In this document: piece after piece, positions 18,801-62,162 of the stretch
How positions within the stretch are numbered: the first letter of the stretch is position 1
Layout of the letters: every line of letters starts with the position of its first letter
Assembly: GCF_020520425.1 (NCBI RefSeq)
Contig: NC_079487.1
Coordinates: 126,316,385-126,380,384, forward strand
DNA from: Spinacia oleracea
Taxonomy: Eukaryota; Streptophyta; Magnoliopsida; Caryophyllales; Amaranthaceae
DNA: 64,000 nucleotides
Direction: 5' to 3'
Notes under the pieces: model-generated
Database searches by the model: none
Told to the model about the DNA's origin: nothing
Seen by the model: only the letters and a program-made list of their open reading frames with translations
Program-made: the position numbers and the translations under genes

Positions 18801-18913
18801 GCTCGATCAAAGGTGATGACTTGGGCTTCAAAATCGTCGCCTAATGTAGTCTTGATCGAGAGTACACATCCGATTGCAAACTCTTCGGTTACTGGGTCCA
18901 TCATCGTCGCCAT
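12838..18913 (-). CDS. LSM12: LSM12-like protein (Lsm domain plus AD domain)
   Basis: Probable RNA-associated protein of the LSM12 family. Exons (minus strand, first to last): 18781-18913, 18472-18631, 18293-18373, 12995-13118, 12838-12885. They sum to 546 nt, or 181 aa plus TAA. The Lsm-like part is about residues 8-70 (EFAIGCVLSIKTTLGDDFEA, then the short loop to GPRKNLRLLKANYIKEF). The AD-type helical part follows (NCYLDLSSLQAREESAIRQA, GVGVTAEAQNIFDALSKT, LPVRWDKT, GGTPAANERVRKV). The C-terminus is LELERKRLHARGSHS. Intron 1 is only in frame as an AT-AC U12-type intron (see separate entry). Intron 4 is about 5.2 kb and carries MITEs and tandem repeats. The start ATG has a short untranslated leader. 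No break is seen. Open frames that read through introns 1 and 2 are not the real product. Confidence 0.92.
13385..13492. repeat. Local tandem repeat in LSM12 intron 4
   Basis: Words such as TATGAAAGAGTTGACTC and ATGATATCTTCT recur two to three times with small changes. It lies inside the 5.2-kb intron and has no coding sense. Confidence 0.6.
14911..15242. mobile_element. Stowaway MITE in LSM12 intron 4
   Basis: The left end CACTCCCGCCGTTCCACAAT and the right end (minus strand) CTCCCTCCGTTCAAGAATAC are inverted relatives with the CTCCCTCCGT core of Stowaway ends. TA dinucleotides flank both ends (14,909-14,910 and 15,243-15,244). About 332 bp. Confidence 0.8.
15305..15489. mobile_element. Stowaway-like relic
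   Basis: The right end reads AACAGAGGGAGTA. The left end is a decayed TTTCCTTTGTTTGTATTTAA. Inverted ends are of the Stowaway type but weak. Confidence 0.45.
15720..16640. repeat. Dispersed duplication inside LSM12 intron 4
   Basis: The stretch near 15,735-15,850 (CATCAAGATTCTAATATA...AGAACCTTAGTG) recurs, diverged, near 16,530-16,650. A separate two-copy tandem repeat of about 51 bp (CTTCCCTCTCACTGA..CTATATATAATTCCTAGTTG) spans about 16,260-16,355. A GA-rich tract lies at 17,071-17,115. No exon is needed in this interval. Confidence 0.6.
18632..18780 (-). other. U12-type AT-AC intron in the LSM12-like gene
   Basis: On the minus strand exon 1 ends C|ATATCCTT, which matches the U12-class 5' splice site consensus. 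The branch-like element TCCTTAAC lies at 18,655-18,662, about 23 nt before a terminal AC at 18,632-18,633. Joining at these sites restores the frame SNILVL-Q-EGSKSGPRKN. I found no GT-AG pair that gives this family-typical junction. Confidence 0.88.
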
Positions 18914-19309
18914 TGTTGCGCACTTTTTTCTGCAACTTTATCGTGTTTTTCTGTAAGAACTGCACTGGAGAATAGAGTGGGGTTATGTTATGTTGCGTGA
19001 GAACTGAAGAGGAAGAAATTAAGAAAGGTTTGTGACTATTAGGATTTTTTTATCTTCGTCTAATACAATACCTTGTTCAAAGATCGGATTGAATCGGATT
19101 GGACCGGAGACAACCAATCCAATCTCCGGGTCAAAAATTATAATATTCCAATCTCTAATTCAAACCCTCTAAAATTTGTGTCATTTGTTCTAGGTTTTAT
19201 TTGTTTTCTAATATATGTGGGAATTGGGATAGTGTTGATTTAACCTTGTGATAGTTAGGTTGCAGCTTGCAAGGCACAAATTTTGCTAGTTATACCTATG
19301 AGTTTGGTG

Positions 19310-28695: not shown

Positions 28696-28739
28696 ATACC
28701 TTTCTTGGCCTTCTGGCTAAGATCAAGTGTAGTATCTGC
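28696..28739 (+). pseudogene. U2 snRNA 5' fragment
   Basis: ATACCTTTCTTGGCCTTCTG continues as GGCTAAGATCAAGTGTAGTA, the U2 5' end with the branch-site-pairing GTAGTA. It ends after about 44 nt and joins a U3 remnant in the opposite sense. Confidence 0.9.
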
Positions 28740-28747
28740 ACCCATTA

Positions 28748-28825
28748 TGAGTTTCCGTCTATTGAGAATTCAAGGCTACAGACGTACAATCCTACAGAAC
28801 ATATCGTGTTTAAGTAGAGATCATT
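28748..28825 (-). pseudogene. Decayed U3 snoRNA 5' fragment
   Basis: On the minus strand it follows the U3 5' region (compare the intact copy at 55,717): TGTTCTGTAGGATTGTACGT corresponds to the box A region, then TCTGTAGCCTTGAATTCTCA. Many substitutions; only the 5' third is present. Confidence 0.75.
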
Positions 28826-28959: not shown

Positions 28960-29080
28960 GGAAGCTCCCGTAAAGGAACTCCCTCCAAAAATAAACGTAT
29001 GCCACTATATACAACGAGCACACGGTATTCTTTAGTAAAAGGCGAAAGAATAGTTCGCTATGTGCTCACTGCATGGCTGC
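28960..29080 (-). ncRNA. U5: U5 spliceosomal snRNA gene, copy 1 (best promoter)
   Basis: Core RNA of the U5 snRNP, which holds exon ends during splicing. On the minus strand the invariant loop 1 CGCCTTTTACTAAAG is present, closed by a long stem (GAGCACA / TGTGCTC). Downstream are the Sm site ATTTTTGG and a 3' stem (GGAGTTCC / GGGAGCTTCC). Length is about 120 nt, in the usual range; the 5' end is estimated from the TATA distance. The promoter lies at 29,107-29,157. This looks functional, and it is the leftmost complete gene of the cluster. Confidence 0.9.
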
Positions 29081-29106
29081 GTAAAGTTGTAATATGATCC
29101 CTCAGT

Positions 29107-29157
29107 TATTTATATTACATTCTAGCTTGGACAATATTTTCTTGACCGATGTGGGAT
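29107..29157 (-). promoter_or_regulatory. U5 promoter: USE and TATA, Pol II spacing
   Basis: The USE on the minus strand is ATCCCACATCG (29,147-29,157), a perfect match to RTCCCACATCG. TATAAATA is at 29,107-29,114. The gap is about 32 nt, the Pol II-type spacing of plant snRNA genes. Confidence 0.9.
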
Positions 29158-30915: not shown

Positions 30916-30939
30916 TCATCGAGGGAGATAATTTGCTTA

Positions 30940-31177
30940 TAATAAAGATTTGCAACGACGAGCTCATTGTCCATGGAAAATTCAAATGCTTATGGACGAC
31001 ATTCAACAACTGATCTCTAATTTCGACAGCCATAATTCAAGACATGTATATCGAGAAGCTAATCGAGCTGCTGATTACGTAGCATCCCTTAGCCATCACA
31101 TTACAAGCCATTTAGATGTTGGTCCTTTTATAGATAACACATTTTCTTATTTTATTTCCTTAGATAGGTTAGGATAG
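30940..31177 (+). pseudogene. LINE-derived RNase H fragment
   Basis: The frame reads DIQQLISNFDSHNSRHVYRE then ANRAADYVASLSHH. This is the C-terminal part of the RNase H domain of plant LINE-type polyproteins, with the HVYREANRAAD block. No reverse transcriptase or upstream part is nearby, so it is a short fragment of a non-LTR retrotransposon. Confidence 0.75.
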
Positions 31178-34300: not shown

Positions 34301-34561
34301 TGATTTATGTGTAAGAATGACCAGATGAAAATGATGCTATAAAAGCCATGTTTTGATCACCATTTGTGGCTAGTCATCGGTGCAAAAAACTTCTTTTGCA
34401 TACAAATGACCAACTACTCGGATTATTTTGATCACCATTTGACATTTGTGACCAGACTCAACGCCCACCTCAAACACACAGTAGACATGGGTTTCTTCCC
34501 CAAGTTCCTCCACAATTTATTTTCCAGTGCTTGGAGATGAAAATTTTCTTTTATGAGTGAT

Positions 34562-34692
34562 GGAAGCTCCTGTTAAGGAACTCCCTCCAAAAATAAACGT
34601 ATGCCACCGAATGCCACGAGGCCCACGAGCACACGGTATTTTTTAGTAAAAGGCGAAAGAATACTTCGCTTTGCGCTCACTACATGGCTGCG
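34562..34692 (-). ncRNA. U5: U5 snRNA copy 2, diverged
   Basis: The minus strand keeps loop 1 CGCCTTTTACTAAA and the Sm-like ATTTTTGG with the 3' stem. The stem side differs from copy 1 (GCGCAAAGCGAAG) and there is a short CGTGG..-type insertion between stem and Sm site (about 131 nt in total). The USE position carries only CTCCAACAACA (34,722-34,732), and a proper TATA is not evident. Probably weak or dead. Confidence 0.75.
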
Positions 34693-35186
34693 TGATGAGG
34701 ATAATAACAGGTGTTCTTGACTGTTGTTGGAGTTTTCTGCCTTTCCCTTATACTTTATCTTATTGTGAAATTTTAGCTACTGAACATATTTTGTTGTTAT
34801 ACCCCATAAACTAAGGGGAATGATTCTACCGGGTGACAATGCCGTTTGTTGGATGTTGCTTCTTAGAAATGTATATTGGACATGCTTTTTTGGATAGAAG
34901 ATTTGTTTCTGAACTTCTTGGTTGTACACTTGAGTTTCTGCTTAATAGGAACATGAAATACCGTTGGGCCATTAGGGCTGCAAGTGGCAGATAAAGAGAT
35001 TTCTCTGGCCCTTTAAATAGAAAGAGTTTTGTACAATCATTGTGTTGAGAAAATGACACCAGAATCTGGACCTTCAAAAGGCTACAAATGTAATGGACAG
35101 ACTAAACTATGCAGGAGCAACTTGGTGACTTCAATCATTAATTTTGCAGGTAGAATACTTCTTGAGGCAAATATTATCTGAATTGG

Positions 35187-35347
35187 ACAAGGGCCGCGCG
35201 AACGCAAGCCCCCACTATCACAAATTATGACGTACACTCTTCCTCTTGGGAAGATGTTAGGCAGACACCCCTTTAAAGTGCAATGGAGGCCACCTACCTA
35301 GGCCATGAGCCTTGTTGATGGCACATTGACCTCGTCCAGGTAAGTAT
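35187..35347 (-). ncRNA. U1: U1 spliceosomal snRNA gene, copy 1
   Basis: RNA of the U1 snRNP, which pairs with 5' splice sites. On the minus strand it begins ATACTTACCTGGACGAGGTC, the invariant 5' splice-site-pairing end. It continues through GGCTCATGGCCTAGGTAGG, CTCCATTGCACTTT (loop II) and the Sm-type AATTTGTGATAG to the 3' stem GCCTTGCGT../GCGCGGCCC. About 161 nt, standard. The 5' end is fixed by ATACTTACC and a TATA 26-32 nt upstream. It is colinear with copy 2 at 53,235 and looks intact, with a few differences (GTGTCTGCC for GTGCCTGCC). Confidence 0.94.
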
Positions 35348-35372
35348 CTTTCATTAAATTCCATGCTTTCAT

Positions 35373-35422
35373 TTTATATCTATGTTGCTCTTCTCATTTC
35401 CTTTATTTTGTTGTTGTGGGAC
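35373..35422 (-). promoter_or_regulatory. U1 copy 1 promoter (USE and TATA)
   Basis: Minus strand GTCCCACAACA (35,412-35,422), a partial USE match (RTCCCACA conserved), and ATATAAAA near 35,373-35,379. Gap of about 32 nt, Pol II type. Confidence 0.7.
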
Positions 35423-35481
35423 AAAAACCAAATATCATATGATGTAAATCCTAAGACAACCCCCTGAATGTAACAATCTAA

Positions 35482-35698
35482 TACTTCACATGTTTATTTT
35501 ATCACAATTGCCAATACAATATTTCAATCATTAATATCTTAAATACCAGTAGTAAAAATTATAAAAACATATATTATAACAAGACCCACGTTACTATTTT
35601 TTTTTCTTAAGTATAAATCACAATTGATAGTCAAAGTAGATTATATGAGTAGTGTCAAAAGTCAAAATGTGTCAACTAAAAAAGAGCGGAGTAAGTAG
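35482..35698. mobile_element. Stowaway-like MITE shared by both U1 segments
   Basis: Left AATACTTCACATGTTTATTT, right AAAAGAGCGGAGTAAGTA. The better kept sister at 53,531-53,793 has ACTTCCTCTGTTC and AAGAACGGAGGAAGTA. Being at the same place in both segments, it was inserted before the duplication. Confidence 0.7.
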
Positions 35699-36957
35699 GT
35701 TGCAATTTCAAATTCACTTTATGTGATACATGGTCATCGATTCTCATGCTTAAAGGAGAAACATCTCCAAATACTCAAATTATCGAATCCTTTAGAGAAA
35801 CTTTATCAGGATGGTCTGGATGGATTTTAATCATGCATTTGGGAACAATTTTGATAAAATGTTATGTTAAGAAGTCAAGAAGGTGCTTTTGGTGTTGAAT
35901 TTAGCTGACATTACCATCTAAATTCTAGACATTATTTTAATGATTTTCTTAGTTAGACATTACTATATGATTCCCAGAATTTTCTAACAGTCTTCCAGAA
36001 TAATGGGGCGACAAGGCAATGACATAAAATGGTGTTAGGATTACAATCCCGGTATAGTGGTCCATTATGGTGTTCTAATAAGTATGGAGTAAAAGAAGAA
36101 AGTACCCCCCAAAACGAAATGAACAAATATAATAGAGAAAAAAACCCTTCAATGATGCGGGTTTTAGGCCTCATAGCCTCGGCTTATTGAACAGGACCGC
36201 AGGGTTCACCGAATTGGGTCGTGTTTTGGAATACACAAATCCTGTTATCAAAACGGGGCCCGGTACCATGTTCCCAGTAACCTTCAATGAAATCCATGTT
36301 CCTTCTCACTTGACATGCCTTTTGCATTTCACTTTGGATTGATTGTGTAGAACTTGGTGTTCTATGAGTCTCGCGTATGTTGTACGATGTTTATTTAAGT
36401 TAGAGTTGGTTACATTATACTGTTTTCTGTTATGTATTACTTTGTTGGTGTTCTGGAATACTTCCTCTAAATTGGTGGCAATTCATGGTTTTGCTCATGC
36501 ATTGCCTCGTGGTATAATCAAAGGTTTAACACAAACTTGGATGTGAAACAAAAAAAGTTGTAGCTGGTTTAGTGAATCATTTCAGTTGCTGATCATACAC
36601 GTAGCCAAGTTGGTGGCAATTCATTTTTCCAGAAAACACTGTTTCGTAGCTGCTCTAGCTTTTGCAATCTGCAGTCCTTCCCACCTCTCTGAAAAATCAG
36701 ATGTCAAGTTATCGGCATATCTTTGTCAAGTGCGAACCGGAAACTGAGAGGATAAGTGGAAAACCTTAATTTACTTCCTTCTAACCTTCGATAGAGAGGT
36801 AGTGACTGCATGAATAATTGGGTGATCCGAGGTTAACGTATCCTTAGTTGTCATCACTGGTTTACTAATAGGGTAATGCCGTAATGGGCTTAGGCCATAT
36901 TGTTGAATCAATGTCAACTGTGTTGTTTTGAAGCCTTACTAACTGATTTTCTCATAA

Positions 36958-37850
36958 GAGCATGTTTATCAAACACCTTGGTTTTGGTCTTCAACCTAAT
37001 AAAATATACTTAATATTTTTCCATTTCTCTCTCCCTAACACCAAACTCAACACCAACAACATTTAACAACATTTATCAAACACCAAAAATATCATCTCTC
37101 CCCTACATTATCTATACCCTACCTACATTTATATCTCTTGATATTGTTATGGATAAGTATATAATCAAATTATTAGTGGCATAATTAATCGTTATTAATT
37201 AAGTTAGTGGCATATTAATTATTTATTAATTAAATTTAATAATCAGCTAATAAATATTTAATGAAAAAATACTTAAAAATTAAATTAAGTAAAAACTTCA
37301 TTTGTTACGTATATAATTTATTTCAATAATAAACTTAACTTGTTACCTAAAAACTCGGTCGTTACAACCTTTAAATAAGTGATATTGCATACTACTAACA
37401 TATAACTAATCAATCACTAGTTTGTCTACATTTTTGCCATACATTTTCAATAGGGCTTTCCTTAAGAGAAAATTAAGATTTTTTTGTGTGATCTAAAGTG
37501 GATCAACATTGGTGTCTATTTATAGAGCATAAAAAAATATAGACATTTATAATTTATTTATTTTTTTGAGTTGTAATATTTATTTTATGGGCATTGTAAA
37601 TTTGCAATGGGTATGTATTTTTAACACAACAAATCTATGTCATAAATCACATTGCAATTAAAAAAAAAAGGATAACCATTAATTTTGGTCTCCAAGCAAG
37701 ATTTTGGTTTTCCATTTGGTGTTCATAAACACCAATTTTTTTGGTTTCATTCTCTCTCTATCTTTCTCACTCATCTATCTACCTCTTGTATTATTTTTTA
37801 TTCACTTCTCTCTCCTAAACACCAAACTAAGGTGTTTGATAACTATGGTC
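36958..37850. mobile_element. Tourist-like (PIF/Harbinger) element with TAA target duplication
   Basis: Left end GAGCATGTTTATCAAACACC, right end (minus strand) GACCATAGTTATCAAACACC, 17 of 20 matching. TAA stands at 36,955-36,957 and 37,851-37,853. The sister segment near 54,985-55,005 (CTCATAAGAACCTGAC) is the empty site. About 893 bp, no transposase ORF seen, so non-autonomous. Confidence 0.9.
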
Positions 37851-38054
37851 TAAGTACCTGACGTCAATGCATTATAGGGTAAAATGTGTGCTTGTAGATA
37901 TTTTGTTTGTTCTCTATGAGTCTGTCCTCTCTATGCTTTAGAAGCCATCAGACTTAACGGACCTAAAGATGAGTTTCAAATTGTTTGATACGCTTTCTGA
38001 AGGTTTATCACTTATTGAAATCTATGCAAGCCATTTCCTTAGGCCAAGGCCCCT

Positions 38055-39693: not shown

Positions 39694-39765
39694 GTCTGTC
39701 AGACAACCATGTGAGCATCCCAAGCTCACAAAGGGGAGCTAGGGAACGATCATCTACAGAACACA
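39694..39765 (-). pseudogene. U3 snoRNA 3' fragment
   Basis: On the minus strand TCTGTAGATGATCGTTCCC (box C region), GTGAGCTTGGGATGCTCACA (3' hairpin) and TTGTCTGACAGACTTC (box D) match the 3' third of the intact U3 at 55,494-55,717. The 5' two thirds are missing. Confidence 0.88.
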
Positions 39766-40146
39766 ATGGTCCATTATGTCACTGAGTCCATTATCTTAGT
39801 TAGTTAGTTACTCTTCTAGTTAAAAGAAGATAAAGCTTTTAATTGGGTATTTTGTTGAAGATAAAGCATGTTTGTTGAGTTAGTATTTCATTGACTGCAG
39901 GATGGGTCCTCTTTTATTTTGGCTGTTGCTTAGTCGCAGTATGTTTTCTGTCACTAGATTTTTGTTCCATCCATCTGTTTTTAATATCTTACTTCAACAA
40001 AGTAAAGCTAGGATCCTTACTTACTAGTTTAATGAAGCTGTATGTGTTGAAAAGCACTAATTGTTGTTGTTTGAAATGTCTCTAAAATTGTTTAGGTTGA
40101 ATTACAGGCTTAAAATTCATTTGGGAACATTCTGCCTTAAGGGATC

Positions 40147-41183: not shown

Positions 41184-41234
41184 ATCCCACACTGAGAGCA
41201 GAAATAGAGGGCTGGAGTAACCAGAAGATAAATA
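41184..41234 (+). promoter_or_regulatory. U2 copy 1 promoter (USE and TATA)
   Basis: ATCCCACACTG at 41,184-41,194 (9 of 11 to RTCCCACATCG), and ATAAATA at 41,228-41,234. The gap is 33 nt, Pol II type. TATA begins 31 nt before the RNA start. Confidence 0.85.
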
Positions 41235-41258
41235 CAGGTTTTTGAAAATGAACAAATC

Positions 41259-41454
41259 ATACCTTTCTCGGCCTTTTGGCTAAGATCAAGTGTAGTATCT
41301 GTTCTTATCAGTTTAATATCTGATACGTGGACCAATGGTCCACAATGATATTAAATTTATTTTTTAAGGGGAAGTCCCACCACAGTAGCTTGCTGCTGGG
41401 GTCTTCAAGCGTTGCCCATGCGTTGCACTATTGCACGGGCCTGGCGCACCCCAC
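41259..41454 (+). ncRNA. U2: U2 spliceosomal snRNA gene, copy 1
   Basis: RNA of the U2 snRNP, which pairs with the intron branch site and with U6. It begins ATACCTTTCTCGGCCTTTTG, then AAGATCAAGTGTAGTATCTG with the branch-pairing GTAGTA, CTTATCAGTTTAATATCTGA (stem-loop II), the Sm site in ATTAAATTTATTTTTTAAGG, and 3' hairpins to GGCCTGGCGCACCCC. 196 nt is the usual plant length; the 3' end is estimated from it. No damage seen in conserved parts. Confidence 0.95.
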
Positions 41455-42168: not shown

Positions 42169-42630
42169 ATCCCACATTGAGAACAATTGAGGGTGATGTT
42201 TTGCAAATTACTAAGGCTTGTCTTTTCTGAGATACTCGCTCAAACCGGTGCGGAGTTTAAGATACTTGAATTGACTTATTAATTTAATGGGTGTTAGGTA
42301 ATAGTGAGTTATTTTTTTTAATATAGTTAGTGGGAAATGTGTAAGGAGTGGTGAGTGGAGGGTGTGAATTTTAAATGATTTTTTTTAGGGAATAGGGGTG
42401 TAGGTAGGGTAGTAGGTAAATGTAAGAAATAATATAATATTTGTAAAGATTTCCATTTATAGAAACGGTGTAAGTATTAAGGGATGACCCGAAAAAGAAA
42501 GCGGTGCGAGTATTAAGGGACGGAGGGAGTATGATAAAATTGGAACAATACAAGGAAGATTAACATGGCTCCCTCTCAAGGATGACAACTGACAAGCACA
42601 AACTGAGAAATGATCTAAATTGTTTTGGCA
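42169..42630 (+). pseudogene. U6 snRNA pseudogene split by a MITE
   Basis: A USE copy ATCCCACATTG is at 42,169-42,179. The U6 5' end GTCTTTTCTGAGA starts near 42,220. The RNA resumes at 42,532 with TGATAAAATTGGAACAATAC and runs, diverged, to about 42,630. A 295-bp Stowaway element separates the two parts. No TATA or T-run terminator remains. Confidence 0.85.
42235..42529. mobile_element. Stowaway MITE inside the U6 pseudogene
   Basis: TA target duplication (42,233-42,234 and 42,530-42,531). The right end on the minus strand is CTCCCTCCGTCCCTTAATAC, the left CTCGCTCAAACCGGTGCGG. About 295 bp. Confidence 0.85.
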
Positions 42631-45924: not shown

Positions 45925-48540
45925 AATTTCTTTCAGTTTACTTCAGTTTTCAAGAGGAAAGTGAGAAATATTATCCCAAATTTGCTAATCTTGTTCGTCG
46001 AATAAAAATTTGGAGTTAACTTTTGCTCATTTTCCAACTATCTATCATGCATCAATTGTTCTTGAGGACTTAGGTAATCCACCGCTTTCTCTCTCCTGTT
46101 TTTAATTTATTTGTCGATTTATGTACTTTTAATTGCCAGTATGTGAAATTAGGGTTGCAATTTTTGTAAAATATAATTATTTCTGAGAAAAAGATTATAA
46201 AATGTTTATAAATTATGATGCGTTATTTTTTTCCACATTGTACATGAATTTTTCTGTGGGGTTTACATTTTTTAATTTGAGATTGTTACTTAAAACGGAG
46301 TAAGTAGTTTCTGTGTGTCAAGATTTAGTGAAGATGTGAAAAATACATATTCCAATTTTCAAATGAAAGCGCCTTAAAATTTCCATTTTGGTGCTTTGAT
46401 CTTAGGCATAATCCCACTTTGATGCCCGTTTGTTTTCCCAATTTGACAAAGTCCCAAAAGAAAAAAACTACCAAAACCACGAAACTTGATTCAATCCCAC
46501 CTTTATTTTATTCCTGTTGTTGTCTTAAAACCCTGGAAGGAAGGGGGGAATGTCAATAAATTTATTGAATGCATTAAAATCGATAGGAAGACTTATATTT
46601 TTGGATTTGGAGCGAAACCAACATAAGAAACAAGAACAACAAAACACGGTTGCTTAAGTCGAATGTTTGATGGCAAGGCACTTATGTGAAATACTGAGTA
46701 TTTTTTAATGCAATGGCTCCAAAATGGAATCATTGAGATAGAGGATGCCGAACCTCATGACATCAAAGTGGAAGTTGTCTTTGTTTTCCTCTCCGCCTTT
46801 ACATCATCTACTGTTTTACACTCTAGGAGTTCATATATTTTTTGTTCATTTAGCCAAGGGGCTAGTAGATAAGCTCCCAAGGATAAGAATATCGTAGCAC
46901 ACCTTCGCTCCGGAGCATTTATAAACTTAGCTTCCCTTATTTTAGTATTTATGCAGATTAATCACTAGACATGTTCCTGAGTATTCATCTAACTAAATGA
47001 CTTCTCATAGTTGAATATCAAGTGTTCACCTTCCTGTCTCGAGGTTTGGGGTTTGGTAATCTCCAGCTATGGTGTAATAATCTTGAAACTTGCTACTCTA
47101 ATGAACTGCTTATGATTGGTCCTGAAGCTAATGGGAAAAGAATATAGTTGGTCTTCATCCATTACTTCCAATTAGCCAATTACCACTACCTTACATCAGT
47201 AACTGGTGGTATTTGATTTTGTAGTTTTTTATACAATCCTTACGATTTAAAGCTCCTAAATCCCATTTCCTTAAGGTTCGGAGGATGTCTCTTGGTCATT
47301 TGAGTTTTCCTAACAAGTGGAAGGGCCAAGAGATTGGAATTTCTACGGACATTTTATCAGAAAACTGTCTACACCTTCATAGGATATCTGCCTGAATTTA
47401 AGAATTTAAAATTGTAGCATAGAACCTAGGCTAGAATTTGACTGTTCTTCTATGTTGTGTACTTATATATGTTTAAGGCTGGTTTAAAGGGAACGGATAT
47501 GTTTCCATGTTGGTTTTTTTATGAGTGTCACATATGTAGATATGCTGCATGATGTTAAAGTTTAGGAAATTGATCTTTGAGTATCCTGCACTTAGCTTAT
47601 GGGGAGCTCCTTTAAGACTGCTTTTTTTTTTTCTTTTTTTTTTTCTTCTAAGATTAAAAATTAGTTTGTGTTCATGCATCGCCTCATAGTCTCATACTGT
47701 AAATCATAGGTTTTAACACAAACTTCGATGAGAAACCAGAAAGGTTGTAGCAGGTTTATGATTTTCAATTGCTAATCACAGACGCTGCCAAGTCGGTGGC
47801 AAATTCATTTTTCCAGACAACATTGTTGATAGATGCTCTAGCTTCTGCAATTTGCATAACTACCACCTTTCTGAAAAACTAGATGAGTACATATATCAAG
47901 CTACCAGCATCTTTGTTAAGTGGGAACCAAGGACCTTAATTTACTTTTGTTTTTTTGGAGGGGGACCTTAATTTACTTTCTCCACAACTTCAGTAATGAC
48001 TGCATGAATGATAAGGTGAGCTACTGGATCTTTAATTGTCATCGGCTCATCGCTAATTGCTAACGGGGTGATGGCCATATGTCATATTGTTGAATCAAAA
48101 TTAAGTGTTCGTTTTGTAGCCTTACAAACTGATTTTCTCATAAGAAAATGACATAAATGCATTGTTAGGTAGAAAAGTGTGCTTTTGCTTGTTCCATATG
48201 GAGTCTTTCCTTGCTGTGCTTCAGAAGCCATCAGATTTAACCACCCTAAGATCAGTTTCCGTTGTTGGACACTTGGACAAGCTTTCTTAAGAGTTATTTC
48301 TTATTGAATTCTATGCAAGATATTTCCTCAATTGGTAACTGATCTGTTGTTTAGGCCAGTGACTTGTGGCATTATATATACTTCCACTTTTTTTTTATAT
48401 GTTTCTCTGATGCAGTTGTCTAATTGGCTTACTCTAGGGGGAAAAAAGAACAGAGGATTAATCTATTATCAACCTATGCCTTCTCCTCTAGAGCTATATA
48501 ATATATACATCTGATAAACTTGGAAAGTAAGCATGATTAA
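45925..48540 (+). repeat. Segmental duplication A2 (partner 31,835-34,300)
   Basis: Colinear with A1 at many places. It also includes a small U5 remnant at about 47,597-47,618 (CTTATGGGGAGCTCCTTTAA), the 3' stem of a U5 gene. No intact gene. Confidence 0.75.
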
Positions 48541-48997
48541 TGTGCAAGAATGACCAGATGAAAATGAAGCCATGCATTGTATTACTGGCTTACTGTATAA
48601 CCCAAGCACTCCCAAGCAATTTATTGCTGTTGTTTTGTTATTTATGCATCTTCTTGAACCTGATTTTCTGTGGCATCCTCTACAGACAATTCTAACAAAT
48701 GGTCATATTCGATAGAATTAGTCCATCACCTCAAATGGTGAACCATTCAATACTTCCCTTCAGCTGTTATGGCAGAGTATTTTGTGGGCTTTGTTTAAGA
48801 ATTGGCACACCATTGAATTTATTCGGTTGGTGGTGTACTTGGAAGATTGGATTAAAAAAAAAAATTAAATGATAAGGGAGGAGGTTAAGATGAGATGTAG
48901 TTGGCCTTGGTAACCTGAAGTTTTTTTTTTCAGGGAACAAACTACTTTGTGTTAGGTTACTGGAGAGTTGAGCTTTTGGAAAGTAACATGTTCTATT

Positions 48998-49040
48998 ATC
49001 CCACATTGAAAGTGTACAAAGGTTCCTTTTTGTTTATAGT
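48998..49040 (+). promoter_or_regulatory. U6 copy 1 promoter (USE and TATA, Pol III spacing)
   Basis: USE ATCCCACATTG at 48,998-49,008 (10 of 11) and TTTATAGT at 49,033-49,040. The gap is about 24 nt, the Pol III-type spacing. TATA begins 30 nt before the RNA start. Confidence 0.9.
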
Positions 49041-49062
49041 ATTCTTGCATCAAATAAGCATT

Positions 49063-49082
49063 GTCTCTTCGGAGACATCTGA

Positions 49083-49114
<32 letters not shown>

Positions 49115-49164
49115 GGCCCCTGCGCAAGGATGACACGCACAAATCGAGAAATGGTCCAAATTTT
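49063..49164 (+). ncRNA. U6: U6 spliceosomal snRNA gene, copy 1
   Basis: Catalytic-core RNA of the spliceosome, a Pol III product. GTCTCTTCGGAGACATCTG, GATAAAATTGGAACGATACA, the ACAGAGA box within ACGATACAGAGAAGATTAGC, then GGCCCCTGCGCAAGGATGAC and AAATCGAGAAATGGTCC agree with plant U6. It is followed by the T-run terminator at 49,161-49,167. About 102 nt. Complete, with promoter and terminator: the best U6 of the window. Confidence 0.97.
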
Positions 49165-49535
49165 TTTGGGTCTTTTCTGCCTATTCCCTGGTTACTTTCT
49201 TTTGCCTGGAATCTCAAATATTTTCTGTTTACAGCAAACCTTGTTCAATCCTCTGAAGTGTATTCAGTATTGTTGCAATTCTTAACTGGAACCGTATATC
49301 CTGTGCCATGATATACAAGACTGTTGGCACCTGATTTCTCTTGTATTTGTAGAAAGTGCTGCGGCAAATAACTGAAGTCGATAAATGCTCCAAATTATTT
49401 CCTTGCCGGCTTTCTTCTCCTGGAATCTGAATTTCAAATGTTTATGCTGTTTACAGAAAAACTTATTCTCTCATCTGCAATGTCTTCATTCTTGTTGCAA
49501 ACCTTGATTCAGGTACCTTATTTTTTTGCTATGAT

Positions 49536-50043: not shown

Positions 50044-51079
50044 GTTGCACTTTATTTATTATTGTCCATTCTATGAACTTTGCCTCTCAATGGTGAAAAG
50101 AAAAAAAAAAAAAACGACTATTTTATCTCCTATAATTATGTGGGCAAAGCTTTTGATAACTAATGACATGGATTACTTTTTTAGTTGAATTTGAAGTCGG
50201 AAGTGGGACAGTATTCTCTTTCTGCTGAATTATATTTTGAGTTGAATTTGAATGCCGAGTTATGAAGTTGCATATCTTTTTGGCTTAATTATTGGAGTAC
50301 TAGTTGAACTTGGATTAATTACTTAATTATACTATTTGAACTTAGATCTCTTGTGGAGTACAGTTCCTTCTGATTCTGAAGCGACTGTTCTTTGCTAGTA
50401 ATGGGTGGAATCTGATAATGTGTTGAAGTCGTGAAAAGTGCTTATTTGTTTGAACATTTTATCCCCTTGATATTTGGTTTGGGAGGGGGTGTCTTTTTGC
50501 TGATTTATCTTGAAAACAGCAAGAGCAGGATATTAGGTTTTCTAATGACAAATTATTGGATTATTGTCCCTTCAAATTTCTTCTGGCCTGAGTACGAAAA
50601 TTCAAGATGATTGCAGAGAAGTTAGGCTTGACTTTTTCTCTTTTGTGCTATGTGTTTGAGGCTACTAGAGATAGGGTATGGAAATGAAAACTCCGTTTAA
50701 CTCTGTTTCTTCATAATTTACATGCTTCTTGGACCCCTCAGATAATATCTCTTACTATCCCTCCCTTTCTCTCACTCTCAGAATTTCTCATCCAAACACA
50801 CGATAAATATACTCTTCATGTTTTCGTTAGTTATTATCTTAGTAACAGAATTACGTAACCTGGTCTGTGGTTGTGCCATATAAGTGTTTGGTCTGCCTAA
50901 GTAGTACATTGATCTAACCATTATTGGACAAAGTTTATTGTAAAAGCATGACTTCAATGTAACATAGGGTGGAGAAGTGTGTTTATAGAGACTTTGTCTG
51001 TTCTCACAGAGCCTTTTCCCGTCATGCCGAAGAGTTATGAGAAGAACCACATATCTGTCTTAAGGATCAGTTATAGTCG

Positions 51080-51612
51080 TTGTATCCCATAATTTATTGC
51101 TGTTGCTTTGTTATTTATGCTTTTTCTTGAAACTTGATTTGCTGTGGCATCCTCTACAGACGATTCTAACAAATGGTCATATTTGATAGAACTAGTCCAT
51201 CACTTTAAATGGTGAATCATTCAATATTTCCTTCACGATTAGAATTGGTGCACCATTAAATTTGCTCGGTTGGTGGGGTGTACTTGGAAGATTGAATTAA
51301 AAAAAACTAAATGAAAGGGAGGAGGATAAGATGAGATGTAGTTGGCCTTGGTAACCTGAAGTTCCTTTTTTCAGAGGATAAACTACTTAGTGTTAGGTTA
51401 TTGGAGAGTTGGGTTTTTGGGGGAGTAACATGTTCAACTTAAATCCCACATTCAAAGTACATAAAACTACCTTTTTGTTTATAATGTTCTTGCATCACAT
51501 AAGCATTGTCTCTTCGGAGACATCTGATAAAATTGGAACAATACAGAGAAGATTAGCATGGCCCCTGCGCAAGGATGACACGCGCACAAATCGAGAAATG
51601 GTCCAATTTTTT
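51080..51612 (+). repeat. Tandem duplication C2 with U6 copy 2
   Basis: Partner of 48,600-49,165, colinear up to and through the U6 gene. Confidence 0.9.
51508..51610 (+). ncRNA. U6: U6 snRNA copy 2, slightly variant
   Basis: Same as copy 1 except GGAACAATACAG for GGAACGATACAG, a 2-nt longer GACACGCGCACAAA, and a shortened GTCCAA before the T-run (51,607-51,615). The promoter has USE-like ATCCCACATTC and TTTATAAT at normal spacing. The ACAGAGA box and the U2/U4-pairing parts are kept. It may be transcribed; the insertion makes normal function uncertain. Confidence 0.88.
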
Positions 51613-52302
51613 TTTGAGCTTTTGAGCTTGATGTTTTCCCATGTGCAAAGCTTTTGGTTCCAGGTTATTGGAGCAGTGGCTTACTCTCAATACTTTAAAT
51701 GATACTTTTTTGTATATATTTGTTTCCAGTATACTCGTATCTATCGGTCTATCCAACGGTTTCTTGGTGGGAACAGACAATCTAACCCTTTTCTTCTAAT
51801 TACCAGTGAGGGCAGTACTGCAGTTGGCCAGTTGTACTATCAGTGATGAATATTGAAGAGAATGAGGCGCTTTGGACAGAGATGATGCAAAAAACTTGAG
51901 AAATAGTTTAGAATATCAGATTTTGGTCCCTCCTTGTCTCTCCTCTTTTTGTGAGTTTCTTTTCCCTTTACTATGCTTGAAGTTTATTTTCTAAATAACT
52001 CGTCACTTACATTTTTCTGCTCTTTAAACTCGTATCAAGTGCTTAAAATTGTCACTACTTATGACATGGTTTCACCAGGGACTATACTCTTGTTGAGTAG
52101 TATGATGCCTTAGAGGCTGCTGCAAGGTTGCTACGTATTAGTTACTACATGTTTACTTACAAAAGCTTATTAGTCTGATTTTCTGTGATTGAGTTGGCGC
52201 TCAAATCAAAGTTTACCTGTAAAATAAATTTTGCTCTTTTGCTGCAAAACGAAAAACAAGCTTTAGGTGAGGGGACAAAATAAATCGAAATAATGAAAAG
52301 AA

Positions 52303-52395
52303 GCATGCCTTTCTGTCGTTTTGCTAAGACCCAGTAACCTATACTTATTTTCCTTCAAAAAAAAGTAACCTATACTTATTCTTATCAGATAACAG
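52303..52395 (+). pseudogene. Decayed U2 snRNA 5' part
   Basis: GCCTTTCTGTCGTTTTGCTAA for the U2 5' end, then an AGTAACCTATACTTATT word twice, then CTTATCAGATAACAG for the later loop. Heavily changed, with a 3' part missing. It lies 80 bp before the U5 copy 3. Confidence 0.65.
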
Positions 52396-52472
52396 TTCTT
52401 GAAATTGATCTTTGATAAACAAAAAGATGTAGAGTTGATAGTTGTTTATAAGAATCTTGCTCTTGGCTTATG

Positions 52473-52595
52473 GGAAGCTCCTTTAAGGAACTCCCTCAAA
52501 AAATAAACGTGTGCCACTTAATGCAGCGAGCACACTTATACTTTTTAGTAAAAGGCGAAATAATAGTTCGCTCTGTTGTGCTCACTGCATGGCTG
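52473..52595 (-). ncRNA. U5: U5 snRNA copy 3
   Basis: The minus strand has loop 1 CGCCTTTTACTAAA and stem GAGCACAACAGAGCG / GTGTGCTCG, with Sm-like ATTTTTTGAGG and 3' stem. Loop 1 is intact, but AAGTATAAG replaces the AAGAATACCG side after loop 1, which weakens the stem. A USE-like CTCCCACATCA (52,627-52,637) remains only about 14 nt from a weak TTATTATCC box, so the promoter looks shortened. Function doubtful. Confidence 0.78.
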
Positions 52596-53234
52596 CGTGA
52601 TGAGGATAATAACAGACTTTTTTGACTGATGTGGGAGTTTTATGCCTTCCCCTTATATTTTATTGTGAAATTTTAGCTACAGATCATATTTTTTGTGTAA
52701 TACTCCGTATTCCCTTAAAACTAAGAGATTTCTTCACTCGCTGTCTGAAGGGGGAATGATTGTACAGGGTGATAATGTCATTTGTTTGATGTTGCTTCTT
52801 AGAAATGTGTCTGAAGTTCTGAACATAGTTTTTTAGATAGGAGATTTGTTTATGAACTTCTTGCTTGTACACTTGAGTTTCTGCTTAATAGGAACATGAA
52901 ATATATTTGGCCGAAAGTGGCGGATAAAGAGATTCCTCTGGTCCTCTAAATAGAAAGAGTTTGTGCAATCATTGTGTTGAGAAAATGACACCAGAATCTG
53001 GAGCTTTAAAATAGCACATGTATCTGGAGATTCCTCTGGTCCTCTGGTCTCCCAACTTGATATGTCAGAACATGTATTGCTAAAAATGTAATGGACAACA
53101 GTCACTGTTTACAGAATTACAAAACCTAGTGGACCCTATAAAATTAGGCACATGCAGGAGCAACTTGGTAACTTTAATCAATAATTTTGCAGGTAGAAAT
53201 GTAGAATACTTGTGACAAATATTAACTGAATTGG

Positions 53235-53395
53235 ACAGGGGCCGCGCGAACGCAGGCCCCCACTATCACAAATTATGACGTACACTCTTCCTCTTGGGAA
53301 GATGTTAGGCAGGCACCCCTCCAAAGTGCAATGGAGGCCACCTACCTAGGCCATGAGCCTTGTTGATCGCACATTGACCTCGTCCAGGTAAGTAT
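53235..53395 (-). ncRNA. U1: U1 spliceosomal snRNA gene, copy 2
   Basis: Minus strand ATACTTACCTGGACGAGGTC, GCGATCAACAAGGCTCATGG, TTTGGAGGGGTGCCTGCC, then the Sm-type AATTTGTGATAG and the 3' stem GGGGGCCTGCGTTCGCGCGG. About 161 nt. It keeps more canonical residues than copy 1 (GGAGGGGTGCC). TATA ATATAAAT at 53,420-53,427 lies 25-32 nt upstream of the 5' end. Intact. Confidence 0.95.
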
Positions 53396-53419
53396 CTTTC
53401 AACAAATTCCATGCTTTCA

Positions 53420-53470
53420 ATTTATATCTATGTTGCTCTTCTCATTTCTTTTATTTTGTTGTTGTGGGGC
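53420..53470 (-). promoter_or_regulatory. U1 copy 2 promoter
   Basis: A degenerate USE GCCCCACAACA (53,460-53,470) and a TATA box at 53,420-53,427, with a gap of about 32 nt. Confidence 0.65.
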
Positions 53471-53530
53471 AAAAACCAAATATCATTTGGTGTAAACCCT
53501 AAGACACACATCTGAATGTAGCAATCTAAT

Positions 53531-53793
53531 ACTTCCTCTGTTCTTTTTTAGTTAGCACATTTGTTTTATTACGTTTGACAATGCAATATTTCAATGATTA
53601 ATATCTTCAAATATCAATGGTAAAAATTATGAAAACGTGATATTATAAACCTATACAGTGAAACAATTATAACAAGACTCACAATACTACATTTTTTCAC
53701 AATACTACATTAATCACAATTGGTAGTCAAAGTAGATTATATGAATAGTGTCAAAAGTCAAAATGTGTCAACTAAAAAAGAACGGAGGAAGTA
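53531..53793. mobile_element. Stowaway MITE, sister of 35,482-35,698
   Basis: Left ACTTCCTCTGTTCTTTTTTA, right AAAAGAACGGAGGAAGTA. Also related to 60,327-60,585. Confidence 0.75.
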
Positions 53794-55493
53794 GGTTGTA
53801 GTTTCAAATGCACTTTATGTGATATATGGTCACCGATTCTCATACTTTAAGCAGAATCATCTCCTAATTCTCAAGTTATCGAATCCTTTAGTGTTCCTTT
53901 CTTTCCAGAAAGAAACTTTATCAGGTTGGTATGAATGGATTTTAATCATGCATTTGGGAACAATTTTGATAAAATGTTATAAAGTCAAGAAGGTGCTTTT
54001 GGTGTTGAATTTAGGTGACACGACCATCTTGAATTCTAGACATTATTGTAATGAACTTCCTAGTAGACATTACCATATGATTCACAGATTTTATTTAACA
54101 GTGTTCCTGATTAATGGCAACGAGCCAATGGCATAAAATTTGTCGTTAGGATTACAATCCCGTTATAGTGGTCCATTACGGTGTTGTAACAACAAGCCTA
54201 GGCTACAAGAAAGAAATGAATAAGTATAATAAAGAAAAAACCCTTCAATGATGTGGGTTATAGCCTAGGCTTGTTGAACTGGATTGCAGGGTTCACCAAA
54301 TTGGGGATCGTGTTTTGGAACACACGAATTCTGTTCTCAGAACGGGGGTCGGTACCATGTTCCTTCTCACTTAACATACTTTTTGCATTTCACTTTGGAT
54401 TGATTGTGTAGCACTTGGTGTTTTACGAGTCTCGCATATGCTGTACGATGTTTCTTTAAGTTGGAGTTGGTTACATGATGTTGTTCTCTGTTTTATTACT
54501 TTGTTTGTGTTCTGGAATATTTCCTTTAAATTTTTCTGAGATTGTAAATAGTTTTGTTTATGCGTTGCCTCATGGTATAAATCAAAGGTTTAACACAAAC
54601 TTGGATATGAAACCAAAAAATTGTAGCTGGTTTAGTGAATCATTTTAATTGCTGATCATACAAGTTGCCAAGTTGGTGGCAATTCATTTTTCCAGAAAAC
54701 ACTGTTTGTAGCTGCTCTGGCTTCTGCAATCTGCATTCTTTCCCACCTCTCTGAAAAATCAGATGTCAAGCTATCGGCATATCTTTGTCAAGTGTGAACC
54801 AAGGACTGGGAGGATAAGTGGAAAACCTTAATGTGAGCTAGTGACGGCATGAATAATACTGTGATCTGAGGTTACTGGATTCTTAGTTGTCATCACTAAT
54901 TTACTAATGGGGTAATGCTGTAATGGCCTTTAGCCATATTGTTGAATCAATGTCAAGTGTTTTGTTTGAAGCCTTACTAACTGATTCTCTCATAAGAACC
55001 TGACATCAATGCATTATAGGGGGAAAAAGTGTGATTGTAGAGATCTTATTTGTCCTCTATGGAGCCGTTCCTCTCTGTGCTTTAGAAGCCATCGGACTTA
55101 ACCGACCTAAAGATCAGTTTCAAATTGTTTGAGAGGCTTTCTTAAGGTTTATTTATTACTTGTTGAAAACTTGAAACCTATGCAAGACATCTCCTTTCTT
55201 GGGGTGTCCACTTGAACCCTTAGGCCAATGCCTCTCTTCCACTTCCACTTCCATTTTGTATCTTTCATCTCATTGTCTTACTTAAGGAAAAATAAAATAA
55301 AGAGGATCCTTAATCTATTAACAGCCTATGCCTATCTGTTGGAGCTATATTGTATATCTGATAAACTTGGTATAATTTTGGAAAATAAGCATTATTGTTG
55401 TGCAAGAATGACCGTAGTTCAAAGATGAACATGCGTAAATAATGTCTCTTAATCTCTCTCCTCTTCCTCGAGGGGTATAGGATTGGAGAAGAA

Positions 55494-55717
55494 GTCTGTC
55501 AGACAACCATGTGAGCATCCCAAGCTCACACAAAGAGGAGCTGGGGAACGATCATCTACAGAATACAGTGATCCCCAAAGATTAATGGTAGCCGTTAATC
55601 ACGCTCAAATCACACATGGTCATAAGTCATCCACCAGACTTGGTTTTCTGTCTCCTTAGAACTCAAGGATACAGAGGTACGATTACTATAGAACAGATCC
55701 TGTTCAAGTAAGGACGT
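55494..55717 (-). ncRNA. U3: U3 snoRNA gene
   Basis: Box C/D snoRNA that guides early cleavage of pre-rRNA (small subunit processome). On the minus strand the 5' part ACGTCCTTACTTGAACAGG, GATCTGTTCTATAG (box A region), CGTACCTCTG, TTCTAAGGAGACAGAAAACC, then GAGCGTGATTAACGG (box B region), GTAGATGATCGTTCC (box C region), GTGTGAGCTTGGGATGCTCAC and TTGTCTGACAGAC (box D). About 224 nt, near plant U3 length. Promoter at 55,741-55,782. All boxes can be read, so it is probably functional. Confidence 0.93.
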
Positions 55718-55740
55718 GCTATGTTATCTATTTACTTCAG

Positions 55741-55782
55741 CTTATAAAGAACATATATTAGCATCTTGAGTCATTGTGGGAC
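55741..55782 (-). promoter_or_regulatory. U3 promoter, Pol III spacing
   Basis: Minus strand GTCCCACAATG (55,772-55,782, 9 of 11 to the USE) and TTTATAAG (55,741-55,748). The gap is 23 nt, as in U6 genes; plant U3 is known as a Pol III gene. Confidence 0.85.
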
Positions 55783-55847
55783 TTCTTCCACCAGTTTTTT
55801 TAAAAGGAAATATCAAGATTATCAAATTGAGCTATAGAGTTCCCCTT

Positions 55848-55903
55848 GTCTCTTCTTCATTAGGATGGCCCTTGCACAAATCGAGAAACGGTCCAATTTT
55901 TTT
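55848..55903 (+). pseudogene. U6 snRNA, internally deleted
   Basis: GTCTCTTCTTC (5' end) joins directly to ATTAGGATGGCCCTTG, then AAATCGAGAAACGGTCC and a T-run. The middle, including the ACAGAGA box, is missing. Confidence 0.85.
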
Positions 55904-55904
55904 G

Positions 55905-56600
<696 letters not shown>

Positions 56601-58296: not shown

Positions 58297-60000
58297 GTTG
58301 TTAAGAGACACGAGATTAGCAGTAAACGTCTTAGCCTTTTCGAATATTGATATAACATATATATAATACAATGTACACAATCCTAACACCACATAAGCTC
58401 CTAAACCTAATAACATTAAGAAACTTTACATAATACAAAACTCTGGAATTATATTTATAGTATAATTCTTAATACTCCCCCTCAAGATGGAGCATGTAAA
58501 CATGAATGCCTTGAATATAACTAAATAACATATAATCTGCCTATGAAGATTTGAAACCAAAAGCCCGTAAGGCACTAGAAAACTTCGCAAACCTCTATCT
58601 AGGAGCGTGTCTTAAGCGATATAAAGACTTACGCAACCTTTAGACCTTCCCAGGAATTGGATGACTGTATCCCGGTGGAAATTGCATATAAACTTCTTCC
58701 TCCTGATCACCATGTAGGAAGACATTATGAACATCCATCTGATGTAAATTGTACCTATTTTTGCTACAGGAACAAAAGTTTCATTATAATCAATAACCTC
58801 AACTTGGCCGTTGCCAAACACCACCAGCGTCCTTTAAGACGTTCCACTATTGACTTGTCCGTGTATTTTATTTTATACACCTAACCATTACCAATAGCTT
58901 TCTTACTTTCTTACTGGGAGGAAGGTCCTCTACTGGCCATGTACCACTGCGCTCAAGAGCGTAAATCTCCTCTTGCATGCCTTACGCCAACTTGGATGTT
59001 TCATTGCCCCCTTAAAAGAAGGTGGTTCCTTCCCATATGTAATAGTTGTTAGAAAACATTTATGCTTTTCAGAAAATTTATCAAAATCAACCTAACAAGC
59101 TAGGAAAAGGTGTACCCGAGGAATGTGATGGAGGAGGAACAATTGATGGAGAAGGGTCTATATTTTCGACAATAGCAGTATTAGTTACATAACCTCGAAG
59201 TTTTGTTGATGGAGTTTTCTTACGATGACCACGACCTGACGACGCTTCCATATTATACTCAACATTATCCGTGCTCCCCCTTGACGCTAGAGGAGTAGAC
59301 GCATCACAATCGTATGCACCAATACGAACCGACAACGATGATGGGGAAGTGGGCTTCTCTGAATTATGCTGATCAATGCCCATAGGCACGCTGCCTGCAG
59401 CAGGTGCAGCAGCTACATCACTCGCTGCAACAGTAGGTATATACTGCCTGCAGCAGCTGTATCATGCACTCGCGTCAGCAGCCCGAGCGTCTGCCAGACT
59501 GTGTGCAGAATGTTGCACGGCCTTCTTGCGTGTGTAAACTTGCAGAGCACCCTGCTGCCTCGTTACAGCACTCAAAGCTGCAGTCTCCATATGCCCAGCA
59601 GGCACGTGCCTTCAACTGGGGATGCAGTACCTGTACGGACCAGATTGTCGCCCAATATATCCTGCCCCACATTACTTACGTCGTCGTCTTCCCGCAATAT
59701 TGGTTGACTAAAAAATTGTTCCCAAAAATCTCTCGTATCATCTGGAAGTGACTCAATCCACGGAAAATTATCTTCAACAAACTGCACATCACGACTTACG
59801 AAGAACTCATTTGTTTCCAAATCTTAAAGACGCCAATACACGACAAGGCTAAATCGTTTAGGATTGTGTACATTGTATTATATATATGTTATATCAATAT
59901 AGGAAAAGGCTAAGCCGTTTACTCCTAAACCTAATAACATTAAGAAACTATACATAAAACAAAACTCTGGAATTATATTTACAGTATAATTCCTAATATT
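58297..60000 (-). mobile_element. Ty1/copia LTR retrotransposon fossil
   Basis: Related terminal repeat pieces lie at about 58,297-58,472 and 59,830-60,000 (shared CCTAAACCTAATAACATTAA and AAAACTCTGGAATTATATTT), with a purine-rich tract beside the left one. Between them, on the minus strand, are pieces of a copia-type polyprotein (integrase C-terminal/linker region and start of the reverse transcriptase). Much of the interior is missing. Broken in several places; an old, dead copy. Confidence 0.8.
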
Positions 60001-60326
60001 CCATCAAAAAAAATATATAAAAAATGGCGCTTTGTTGAGTTTGTTTGCCGGTGAATAGTTAATGGACTTAAGCTAGATGTACTTCAATCTAAAACGAGAA
60101 TTCTGATGTAATCCACTAATCCTTCGATATTTGAATGGAGCATGTAGTCCTTGATCCCAAATCTATCGTTAACTAATCCAATTACTTAATAACATATGTT
60201 TAGTCCTTTCTTTTTAAGTTGTATTTATTCCAGGAGGACTCATTGTGACTTGTGAGCATTGGTGTGTATGTTAAGCAAAGCAAGAGTTGCGACTGTATTT
60301 TCAGAATTTGGATTCATAAGTCATAT

Positions 60327-60585
60327 ACTTCTTCCGTTCTTATTTAGTTGACACATTTCTTTAGTCACGTTTCCCAATGCACATTTTTTATCACTAATAT
60401 CTATCATTATGTAAAAGATAAAATTATAAAAAGTTGATATGAAAATATTTATCAAAACAAGTTTAACAAGATCGCACATGACTATATTTTACCCTACGCA
60501 TAAATAACAAAATCCATTCAAAAGATGGTGTATGAATAGTTCTAAAGTCAAACTGTGTCAACTAAATAAGAACGGAGGAAAGATT
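60327..60585. mobile_element. Stowaway-like MITE
   Basis: Left ACTTCTTCCGTTCTTATTTA, right AATAAGAACGGAGGAAAG. Same family as 53,531-53,793. Confidence 0.7.
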
Positions 60586-61889: not shown

Positions 61890-61941
61890 GTACCACATTG
61901 AAAATATAATAGGAGATTACAGTAACTACAGGAAATAAAAG
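61890..61941 (+). promoter_or_regulatory. U2 copy 2 promoter
   Basis: GTACCACATTG at 61,890-61,900 (9 of 11 to the USE) and AAATAAAA near 61,933-61,940. Gap of about 33 nt; RNA start 32 nt further. Confidence 0.8.
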
Positions 61942-61965
61942 CCAAGAATTGAGTTTGAACAAATC

Positions 61966-62162
61966 ATACCTTTCTCGGCCTTTTGGCTAAGATCAAGTGT
62001 AGTATTTGTTCTTATCAGTTTAATATCTGATACGTGGACCAATGGTCCACAACGATATTAAATTTATTTTTTAAGGGAGAAGTCCCATCACAGTAGCTTG
62101 CTGCTGGGGTCTTCAAGCGTCGCCCATGCGTTGCACTATTGCATGGGCCTGGCGCACCCCAC
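61966..62162 (+). ncRNA. U2: U2 spliceosomal snRNA gene, copy 2
   Basis: Nearly identical to copy 1 at 41,259: same 5' end, GTAGTA branch-pairing box, stem-loops and Sm region. Differences include GTAGTATTTG for GTAGTATCTG, CACAACGATA for CACAATGATA, an extra A in GGGAGAAGTCCC and CGTCGCCCATG for CGTTGCCCATG. About 197 nt, with a good promoter. Likely functional. Confidence 0.94.

Follow-up and report, generated by a model that had tools for sequence, protein, structure and literature searches.

A partly decayed U2-U5-U1-U3-U6 unit in the mixed small nuclear RNA gene clusters of spinach

Gene content and extent of the unit

The present study concerns a 64,000-nucleotide stretch of DNA from spinach (Spinacia oleracea; assembly GCF_020520425.1, contig NC_079487.1, called C1 below, positions 126,316,385 to 126,380,384 of the forward strand), hereafter the window, in which an initial annotation had placed genes or remnants of five U-RNA classes—U2(+), U5(-), U1(-), U3(-) and U6(+)—one directly after another at 52303-55903 (the cassette). 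Four of these classes are spliceosomal small nuclear RNAs (snRNAs), U3 being a small nucleolar RNA (snoRNA); U1, U2 and U5 belong to RNA polymerase II (Pol II), U3 and U6 to RNA polymerase III (Pol III). The 64-kb window was scanned with cmscan against all Rfam families, and remnants were scored by local alignment to intact paralogues. The locus contains the following features, the promoters being described by their upstream sequence element (USE) and TATA element:

51443..51507, plus strand: promoter of the U6 gene at 51508; USE (two mismatches) at -65, TATA-like element at -28, Pol III spacing
51508..51612, plus strand: U6 gene opening the repeating unit, upstream of the cassette as first delimited; 105 bits
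52292..52335, plus strand: U2 remnant, 5' end only with promoter-proximal bases; paralogue alignment score 33
52474..52595, minus strand: U5 with promoter deletion; 64.4 bits; USE-like motif at -42, no TATA
53235..53395, minus strand: U1 gene with intact body and slow divergence, predicted to be active; 140.1 bits
53396..53475, minus strand: U1 promoter; USE (three mismatches) at -75, TATA at -31, gap 33, Pol II spacing
55353..55413, plus strand: possible second U6 remnant, tail-to-tail with U3 (80 nt); weak, score 25 against a control maximum of 24
55493..55717, minus strand: U3 snoRNA gene, complete body, no Pol III T-run; 160.4 bits
55718..55782, minus strand: U3 promoter; USE (two mismatches) at -65, TATA at -29, gap 25, Pol III spacing
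55858..55904, plus strand: U6 remnant, 3' part; E 6.4e-5; alignment score 54 against a maximum of 27 in controls
56115..56583: block Z, 3' of U6, closing the unit; repeat of 51702-52228, 79%

The U5, U1 and U3 matches exceed their Rfam cutoffs (40, 69.5 and 80 bits, respectively), but the models give no match for the cassette U2(+) near 52303 or U6(+) at 55862, even at E<=1, because both stubs are too short. The check by Rfam models thus holds for three of the classes and fails for two, the latter being recovered by paralogue alignment; taken together, the proposed succession U2(+) U5(-) U1(-) U3(-) U6(+) is real, with U2 as its weakest member. The score of the U2 stub exceeds by a small margin the maximum of 30 reached in 500 shuffles and 500 control pieces, and the stub is clearer in three of the four sister copies of the cassette (scores 40, 37 and 39, no control exceeding 30). 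In the remaining one, C1b (L017), its score of 23 lies within the control range, 41 of 500 control pieces scoring as high. The possible second U6 remnant has a copy at 48495 (score 33 against a control maximum of 25), and L017 carries a clearer U6 (63 bits) at the matching place. Just past the cassette U6 remnant, a perfect run of about 72 TA dinucleotides occupies 55988-56132.

Self-comparison of the window indicates that the boundaries 52303-55903 were drawn too narrowly. The U6 gene at 51508—which ends in a T-run and has a 2-nt insertion relative to the U6 at 49063—together with the block 3' of it (51508-52228) is repeated at 55862-56583, with a period of 4.3-4.4 kb, and the true unit therefore runs from this U6 to the end of the block at about 56583. 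The cassette is one partly decayed unit of a mixed snRNA cluster.

State of the individual genes

Concerning U1, its description as intact is upheld: the body is identical to the copies in L017 and in C6a at 160 of 161 positions each, and the promoter elements are in place. The flanks, being 92-93% identical in these comparisons, differ at 91 of 1337 positions (L017) and at 107 of 1352 (C6a), so the U1 body has diverged more slowly (Fisher p 0.0003 and 0.00005, respectively).

The cassette U5, in contrast to its earlier reading as nearly intact, has a USE-like motif at -42 only, with no TATA found. The same TATA-less state, with the motif at about -42, is present in six of the 15 U5 copies scoring at least 79 bits, the cassette U5 among them. 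Its 3' box, judged by the plant consensus given in the available part of PMC5079582, is one base off and is kept in four of five sister copies. This box is exact in many U5 copies and was used for U5 only, since matches with one mismatch are frequent by chance (541 of 2000 background pieces). The U5 body differs at 3 of 122 positions from L017 and at 6 of 120 from C6a, a divergence not clearly below that of the flanks (p 0.04 and 0.17).

As for U3, the claim that it looks intact stands for the body and not for the 3' end, no run of at least four T being found within 80 nt downstream, unlike both full U3 paralogues (L017 and L030), each of which is followed by seven T. From these features U1 is predicted to be active in this unit, and U2, U5, U6 and probably U3 are predicted not to be. 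A functional five-gene cassette at this site was rejected, as four of its five members (U2, U5, U6 and probably U3) look dead or damaged.

Promoter spacing

In plants, the USE and TATA of Pol II-transcribed snRNA genes are reported to lie about four helical turns apart, the USE of Pol III-transcribed genes being one turn closer (PMC9845283, available part). The spinach promoters match this difference. A USE-TATA gap of 31-33 was found in 12 of 15 U1, of 32-33 in all six U2 rows with at least 100 bits and uncut by the window edge, and of 30-32 in nine of the 15 U5 rows with at least 79 bits; the gap is 24-26 in all 12 U6 rows with at least 89 bits and in both full U3 genes. These counts leave aside 14 of the 20 U2 rows (edge-cut or below 100 bits), three of 18 U5 rows (under 30 bits), eight of 20 U6 rows and one of three U3 rows (a fragment); the eight U6 rows, all under 70 bits, lack the 24-26 gap. 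The mixture of Pol II with Pol III genes noted in the initial annotation is borne out by gaps of Pol II spacing in U1 and of Pol III spacing in U3 and U6.

Copies of the cassette in the genome

An inverted copy, L017, is located about 0.38 Mb away. It aligns with 51091-55434 in one piece (4.4 kb, 87%), continues with the U3-U6 stretch (89%) and block Z (95%), and next carries a further U5-U1 pair; nothing corresponding to this pair is present between 56583 and 56586 of the window. The order in L017 is U6 (partial), U5, U1, U6, U3, U5, U1, making it the sole copy with both U3 and the further U5-U1 pair. Two C6 copies, about 90% identical over 51030 to 55306, are without U3 and its U6 remnant and have the further U5-U1 pair next; C6 holds in addition a third, partial copy. 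In the flanking blocks, the C1b and C6 copies differ from the cassette by 5-9% and have private insertions and deletions.

It may be added that C6:15.846-15.917 Mb contains a tandem duplication of about 50 kb with 14 snRNA matches, in the same order in both halves, and that a tRNA match lies on the minus strand just past the last U5 of the C1 array (L010, 6523-6604).

Clustering and strand polarity

The genome-wide family searches, which give lower bounds, found at least 42 U1, at least 42 U2 (38 over cutoff), at least 29 U3 (14 over cutoff), at least 17 U4 and at least 48 U6. The cluster counts cover the over-cutoff matches of these five classes (thus omitting 4 U2 and 15 U3) with a merging distance of 100 kb; for U5, only the fetched loci were counted. 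Most of the U1, U2, U3, U4 and U6 genes found reside in mixed clusters, i.e. 133 of the 159 over-cutoff matches fall within 17 clusters of at least two classes.

Within the window and the fetched array regions, six regions in total, the matches at E<=0.05 sort without exception (103 of 103) into U1, U5 and U3 on one strand against U2 and U6 on the opposite one, one U2 that is split by the window edge being counted twice and the C4:32.7 Mb region, with its two U1 matches, providing little test. This count excludes eight 3-kb loci (L001-L008), four of which (L001, L002, L004 and L006) are not part of the six regions. Some U2 genes of the fetched loci look truncated, but this has no biological meaning, as a portion of their sequence is given as N. 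At E<=1e-4, the same rule is followed by 82 of 82 matches in three arrays. In the genome-wide data, all nine clusters that contain both U1 and U6 have them on opposite strands, and all nine that contain both U2 and U6 have these on the same strand. Along their strand U1 and U5 alternate, only two of 24 neighbouring pairs being of the same class, which was equalled or undercut in 9 of 20000 shuffles (the near-copy C6b left out, U3 ignored). The gaps between array genes range from under 0.1 to over 6 kb.

The linkage of U3 with U1 recurs as well: of the 14 U3 genes over the cutoff, five have a U1 less than 3 kb away, against 0.004 expected, a limit that was set after the gaps had been seen. In all five (one on C5, two on C2 and two on C1) the U1 is on the same strand and downstream, as it is for a sixth U3 (C6) slightly below the cutoff; the remaining nine over-cutoff U3 genes are at least 10 kb from any U1. 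With regard to U4, it is opposite to the nearest U1 in all 11 cases, out of 17 U4, with a U1 within 16 kb. U1 and U4 also form arrays of their own, the two classes being on opposite strands, at C1 11.86-12.05 Mb, C1 13.59-13.97 Mb and C4 176.76 Mb.

Origin of the mixed units

Based on the above results, the cassette is very probably a decayed unit of strand-sorted mixed arrays, likely generated when an ancestral mixed unit was duplicated in tandem and segmentally, with only U1 predicted to be active here. This reading is built on the observed order and strands of the genes, the collinear copies, the Pol II and Pol III promoter spacing, the slow change of the U1 body and the matching trees of U1 and U5. 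The trees were calculated with FastTree, that of U1 from 25 of the 42 U1 copies. The six U1 genes beside the TATA-less U5 copies, also six, all belong to one clade (support 0.995); the group of these U5 copies has a support of 0.888 when the one at 34565 is left aside and of 0.315 when it is included. The type-A U5 copies, three in number (0.870), adjoin a single U1 trio (1.000). Such agreement is what co-duplication of linked pairs predicts. The U1 sequences of five mixed regions are set apart from those at C4 32.7, C1 13.85-13.97 and C2 107 Mb (local support 0.842).

As to the mechanism, unequal crossing-over within the arrays would copy whole units, and strand polarity would be inherited from the founding unit. 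After copying, each gene may survive or die singly, because no gene shares its USE/TATA promoter or its 3' signal with another; a broken neighbour—here U5, U2, U6 and probably U3—would cost little while other copies remain.

Several observations weigh against this reading or restrict it. The polarity is not universal, since the U4-type clusters violate its U1/U2 part: U1 and U2 are on the same strand in two of these (C1 13.59 and 13.84 Mb) and also at C2 107.2 Mb. The loci L001 and L006, outside the counted regions, break the strand rule, and a U5 adjoining U1 at C1 13.85 Mb lies on the opposite strand. Among the U3 matches, two have the other strand, one of them 37 kb away from array C1b and one, below the cutoff at 40 bits, 8.6 kb away from a U1 on C2; the C5 cluster (6.5-6.7 Mb) has U3 on both strands. 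The count of 103 of 103 itself overstates the evidence, because duplicated units are not independent. As far as U1 is concerned, the slow change of its body could equally stem from gene conversion, selection being also possible; its promoter diverges at the flank rate (4 of 80 positions against 91 of 1337, p 0.37) and its USE has three mismatches, and for these reasons its activity is put forward as a prediction.

An alternative is that selection keeps the mixed arrays together as a shared transcription hub, e.g. a Cajal body anchor balancing the output of U1, U2, U5, U6 and U3, the polarity being functional. The concentration of matches in multi-class clusters on several chromosomes would fit it, as would the return of the polarity at diverged loci on C1, C2, C4 and C6 and the report, in the available part of PMC4802181, that human snRNA and U3 loci associate with Cajal bodies, whose loss lowers their expression. 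Many array members are, however, dead, the intergenic gaps vary over the wide range given above, and duplication alone already predicts the polarity, so that the hub appears unlikely. Equally doubtful is the broader proposition that spinach, perhaps its order, supplies its splicing RNAs from strand-polarised Pol II and Pol III super-arrays in which selection holds polarity and linkage, as a plant counterpart of a shared snRNA transcription hub.

An assembly artefact, with repeats collapsed or mis-joined, is very improbable: the near-identical C6 units 50 kb apart (96-100% in aligned blocks) might mislead an assembler, but the 5-9% flank divergence and the private indels of the C1b and C6 copies are not assembler-made. 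A chance pile-up of independently inserted, retro-copied snRNA pseudogenes, for which fragments and a U2/U3 chimera could speak, has a negligible probability and was rejected on the kilobases of flank common to the copies, the better copies moreover having promoters and 3' signals at the correct spacing and the fetched arrays a uniform polarity.

Comparison with known systems

Returning to the mixed unit, its closest counterparts are known from Arabidopsis, fish, Drosophila and Euglena. For Arabidopsis, the available part of the ASRG survey (PMC545797) describes seven U1-U4 clusters with 180-300 nt between the genes and U1 upstream, as well as one U2-U5 cluster with the genes under 200 nt apart, cluster duplication being proposed by its authors. 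The spinach clusters resemble these in linking classes, in their USE and TATA promoters and in the proposed duplication; as far as the same text goes, they differ in that the Arabidopsis clusters hold two classes each, whereas in spinach up to five, including U6 and U3, extend over tens of kb. Unlike the Arabidopsis U1-U4 arrangement described there, spinach U4 is opposite to the nearest U1 within 16 kb.

In animals, U1-U2-U5 and U2-U5 arrays in fish and U1-U2, U2-U5 and U4-U5 linkages in Drosophila are summarised in the available part of PMC3464664; multi-class linkage, notably of U2 with U5, is shared with spinach, but the linkages as summarised there include no Pol III-transcribed U6 or U3. 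The Euglena U3-U5 linkages, multiplied by locus duplication (PMC2784804, available part), are similar in joining U3 to U5 and in the duplication of the locus. According to that text, the Euglena U5 lies downstream of and convergent to U3, whereas U3, U1 and U5 share one strand in spinach; the same text, of 2009, knew of no small RNA genes except tRNA in direct linkage with U3, and of no other organism with U3-U5 linkage.

Mixed plant arrays with U6 and U3 and with fixed polarity were not found described in the literature searched, which lacked most papers of the subscription journals that carried much of the older plant snRNA work. The suggestion that a compact multi-class unit might be an undescribed arrangement survives in a modified form: order and polarity are conserved where the unit returns in the genome, and nothing matching it was found described in that literature, but this copy is not a working five-gene cassette. 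It should be noted that snRNA genes are usually catalogued class by class, so class-mixed arrays are easily missed. The spinach mixed clusters, in which Pol II and Pol III genes are intermingled and those of U6 type keep a fixed polarity, offer a natural test of positional snRNA co-regulation; they are also informative on how multigene families get amplified and pruned, and bear on which copies are good U6 and U3 promoters for editing tools.

Related units and other features of the window

Further units, genes and repeat blocks related to the cassette are the following:

28696..28824, plus strand: unit A, chimera of the U2(+) 5' end fused to the antisense U3(-) 5' half
28962..29157, minus strand: unit A, best-scoring U5 of the window; exact USE at -79, TATA at -36
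34562..36964, minus strand: unit B, paralogue of 52473-55002, with U5 (34565-34690), U1 (35188-35347) and spacer
39694..39775, minus strand: U3 3' fragment of unit B, upstream of the unit B U1 as in the cassette
41184..41454, plus strand: complete U2 with USE-like and TATA-like elements
48998..49169, plus strand: complete U6 after another X block, with USE and TATA-like elements
53529..53790: inverted-end repeat, partly common to unit B (35559-35694), with a related copy at 60325-60580
54368..55434: spacer block X between U1 and U3, with other copies at 33297-34340, 36307-38042 (two pieces) and 47630-48575
61890..62162, plus strand: complete U2 with USE-like and TATA-like elements

The complete U2 and U6 genes agree with the initial annotation in that both classes are broken in the cassette and intact elsewhere in the window. 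No U2 stub was detected before the U5 of unit B, the score of 20 being reached by 72 of 500 shuffles. Each of the four X copies in the window lies less than 2 kb from a U-RNA gene or fragment. An rDNA-like homogenised array was rejected, the blocks of the window being about 64-84% alike and interrupted by inserts.

The inverted-end repeat at 53529-53790 is MITE-like (miniature inverted-repeat transposable element). At 42169-42628, a USE-like motif precedes a U6 body by about 350 nt, perhaps separated from it by a MITE-like insert; this promoter-side part could not be separated from chance, three of 500 control pieces scoring as high.

A Pfam search of 10 open reading frames (ORFs) of the window revealed no gene explaining the spacer blocks, the ORF of block X having only a below-cutoff match. 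Elsewhere in the window, an ORF with an LSM12 LSM domain is located at 18719-18937 on the minus strand, and an AXY4-type ORF at 25774-26931, 97% of which is covered by a match of 100% identity to a Spinacia oleracea protein. An RVT_3 reverse-transcriptase-like fragment and a below-cutoff match to a retroelement SH3-like domain were found by Pfam at 30932-31174 and 59575-59823, and AT-rich direct repeats of about 100-144 nt, both tandem and dispersed, occupy 377-1642.

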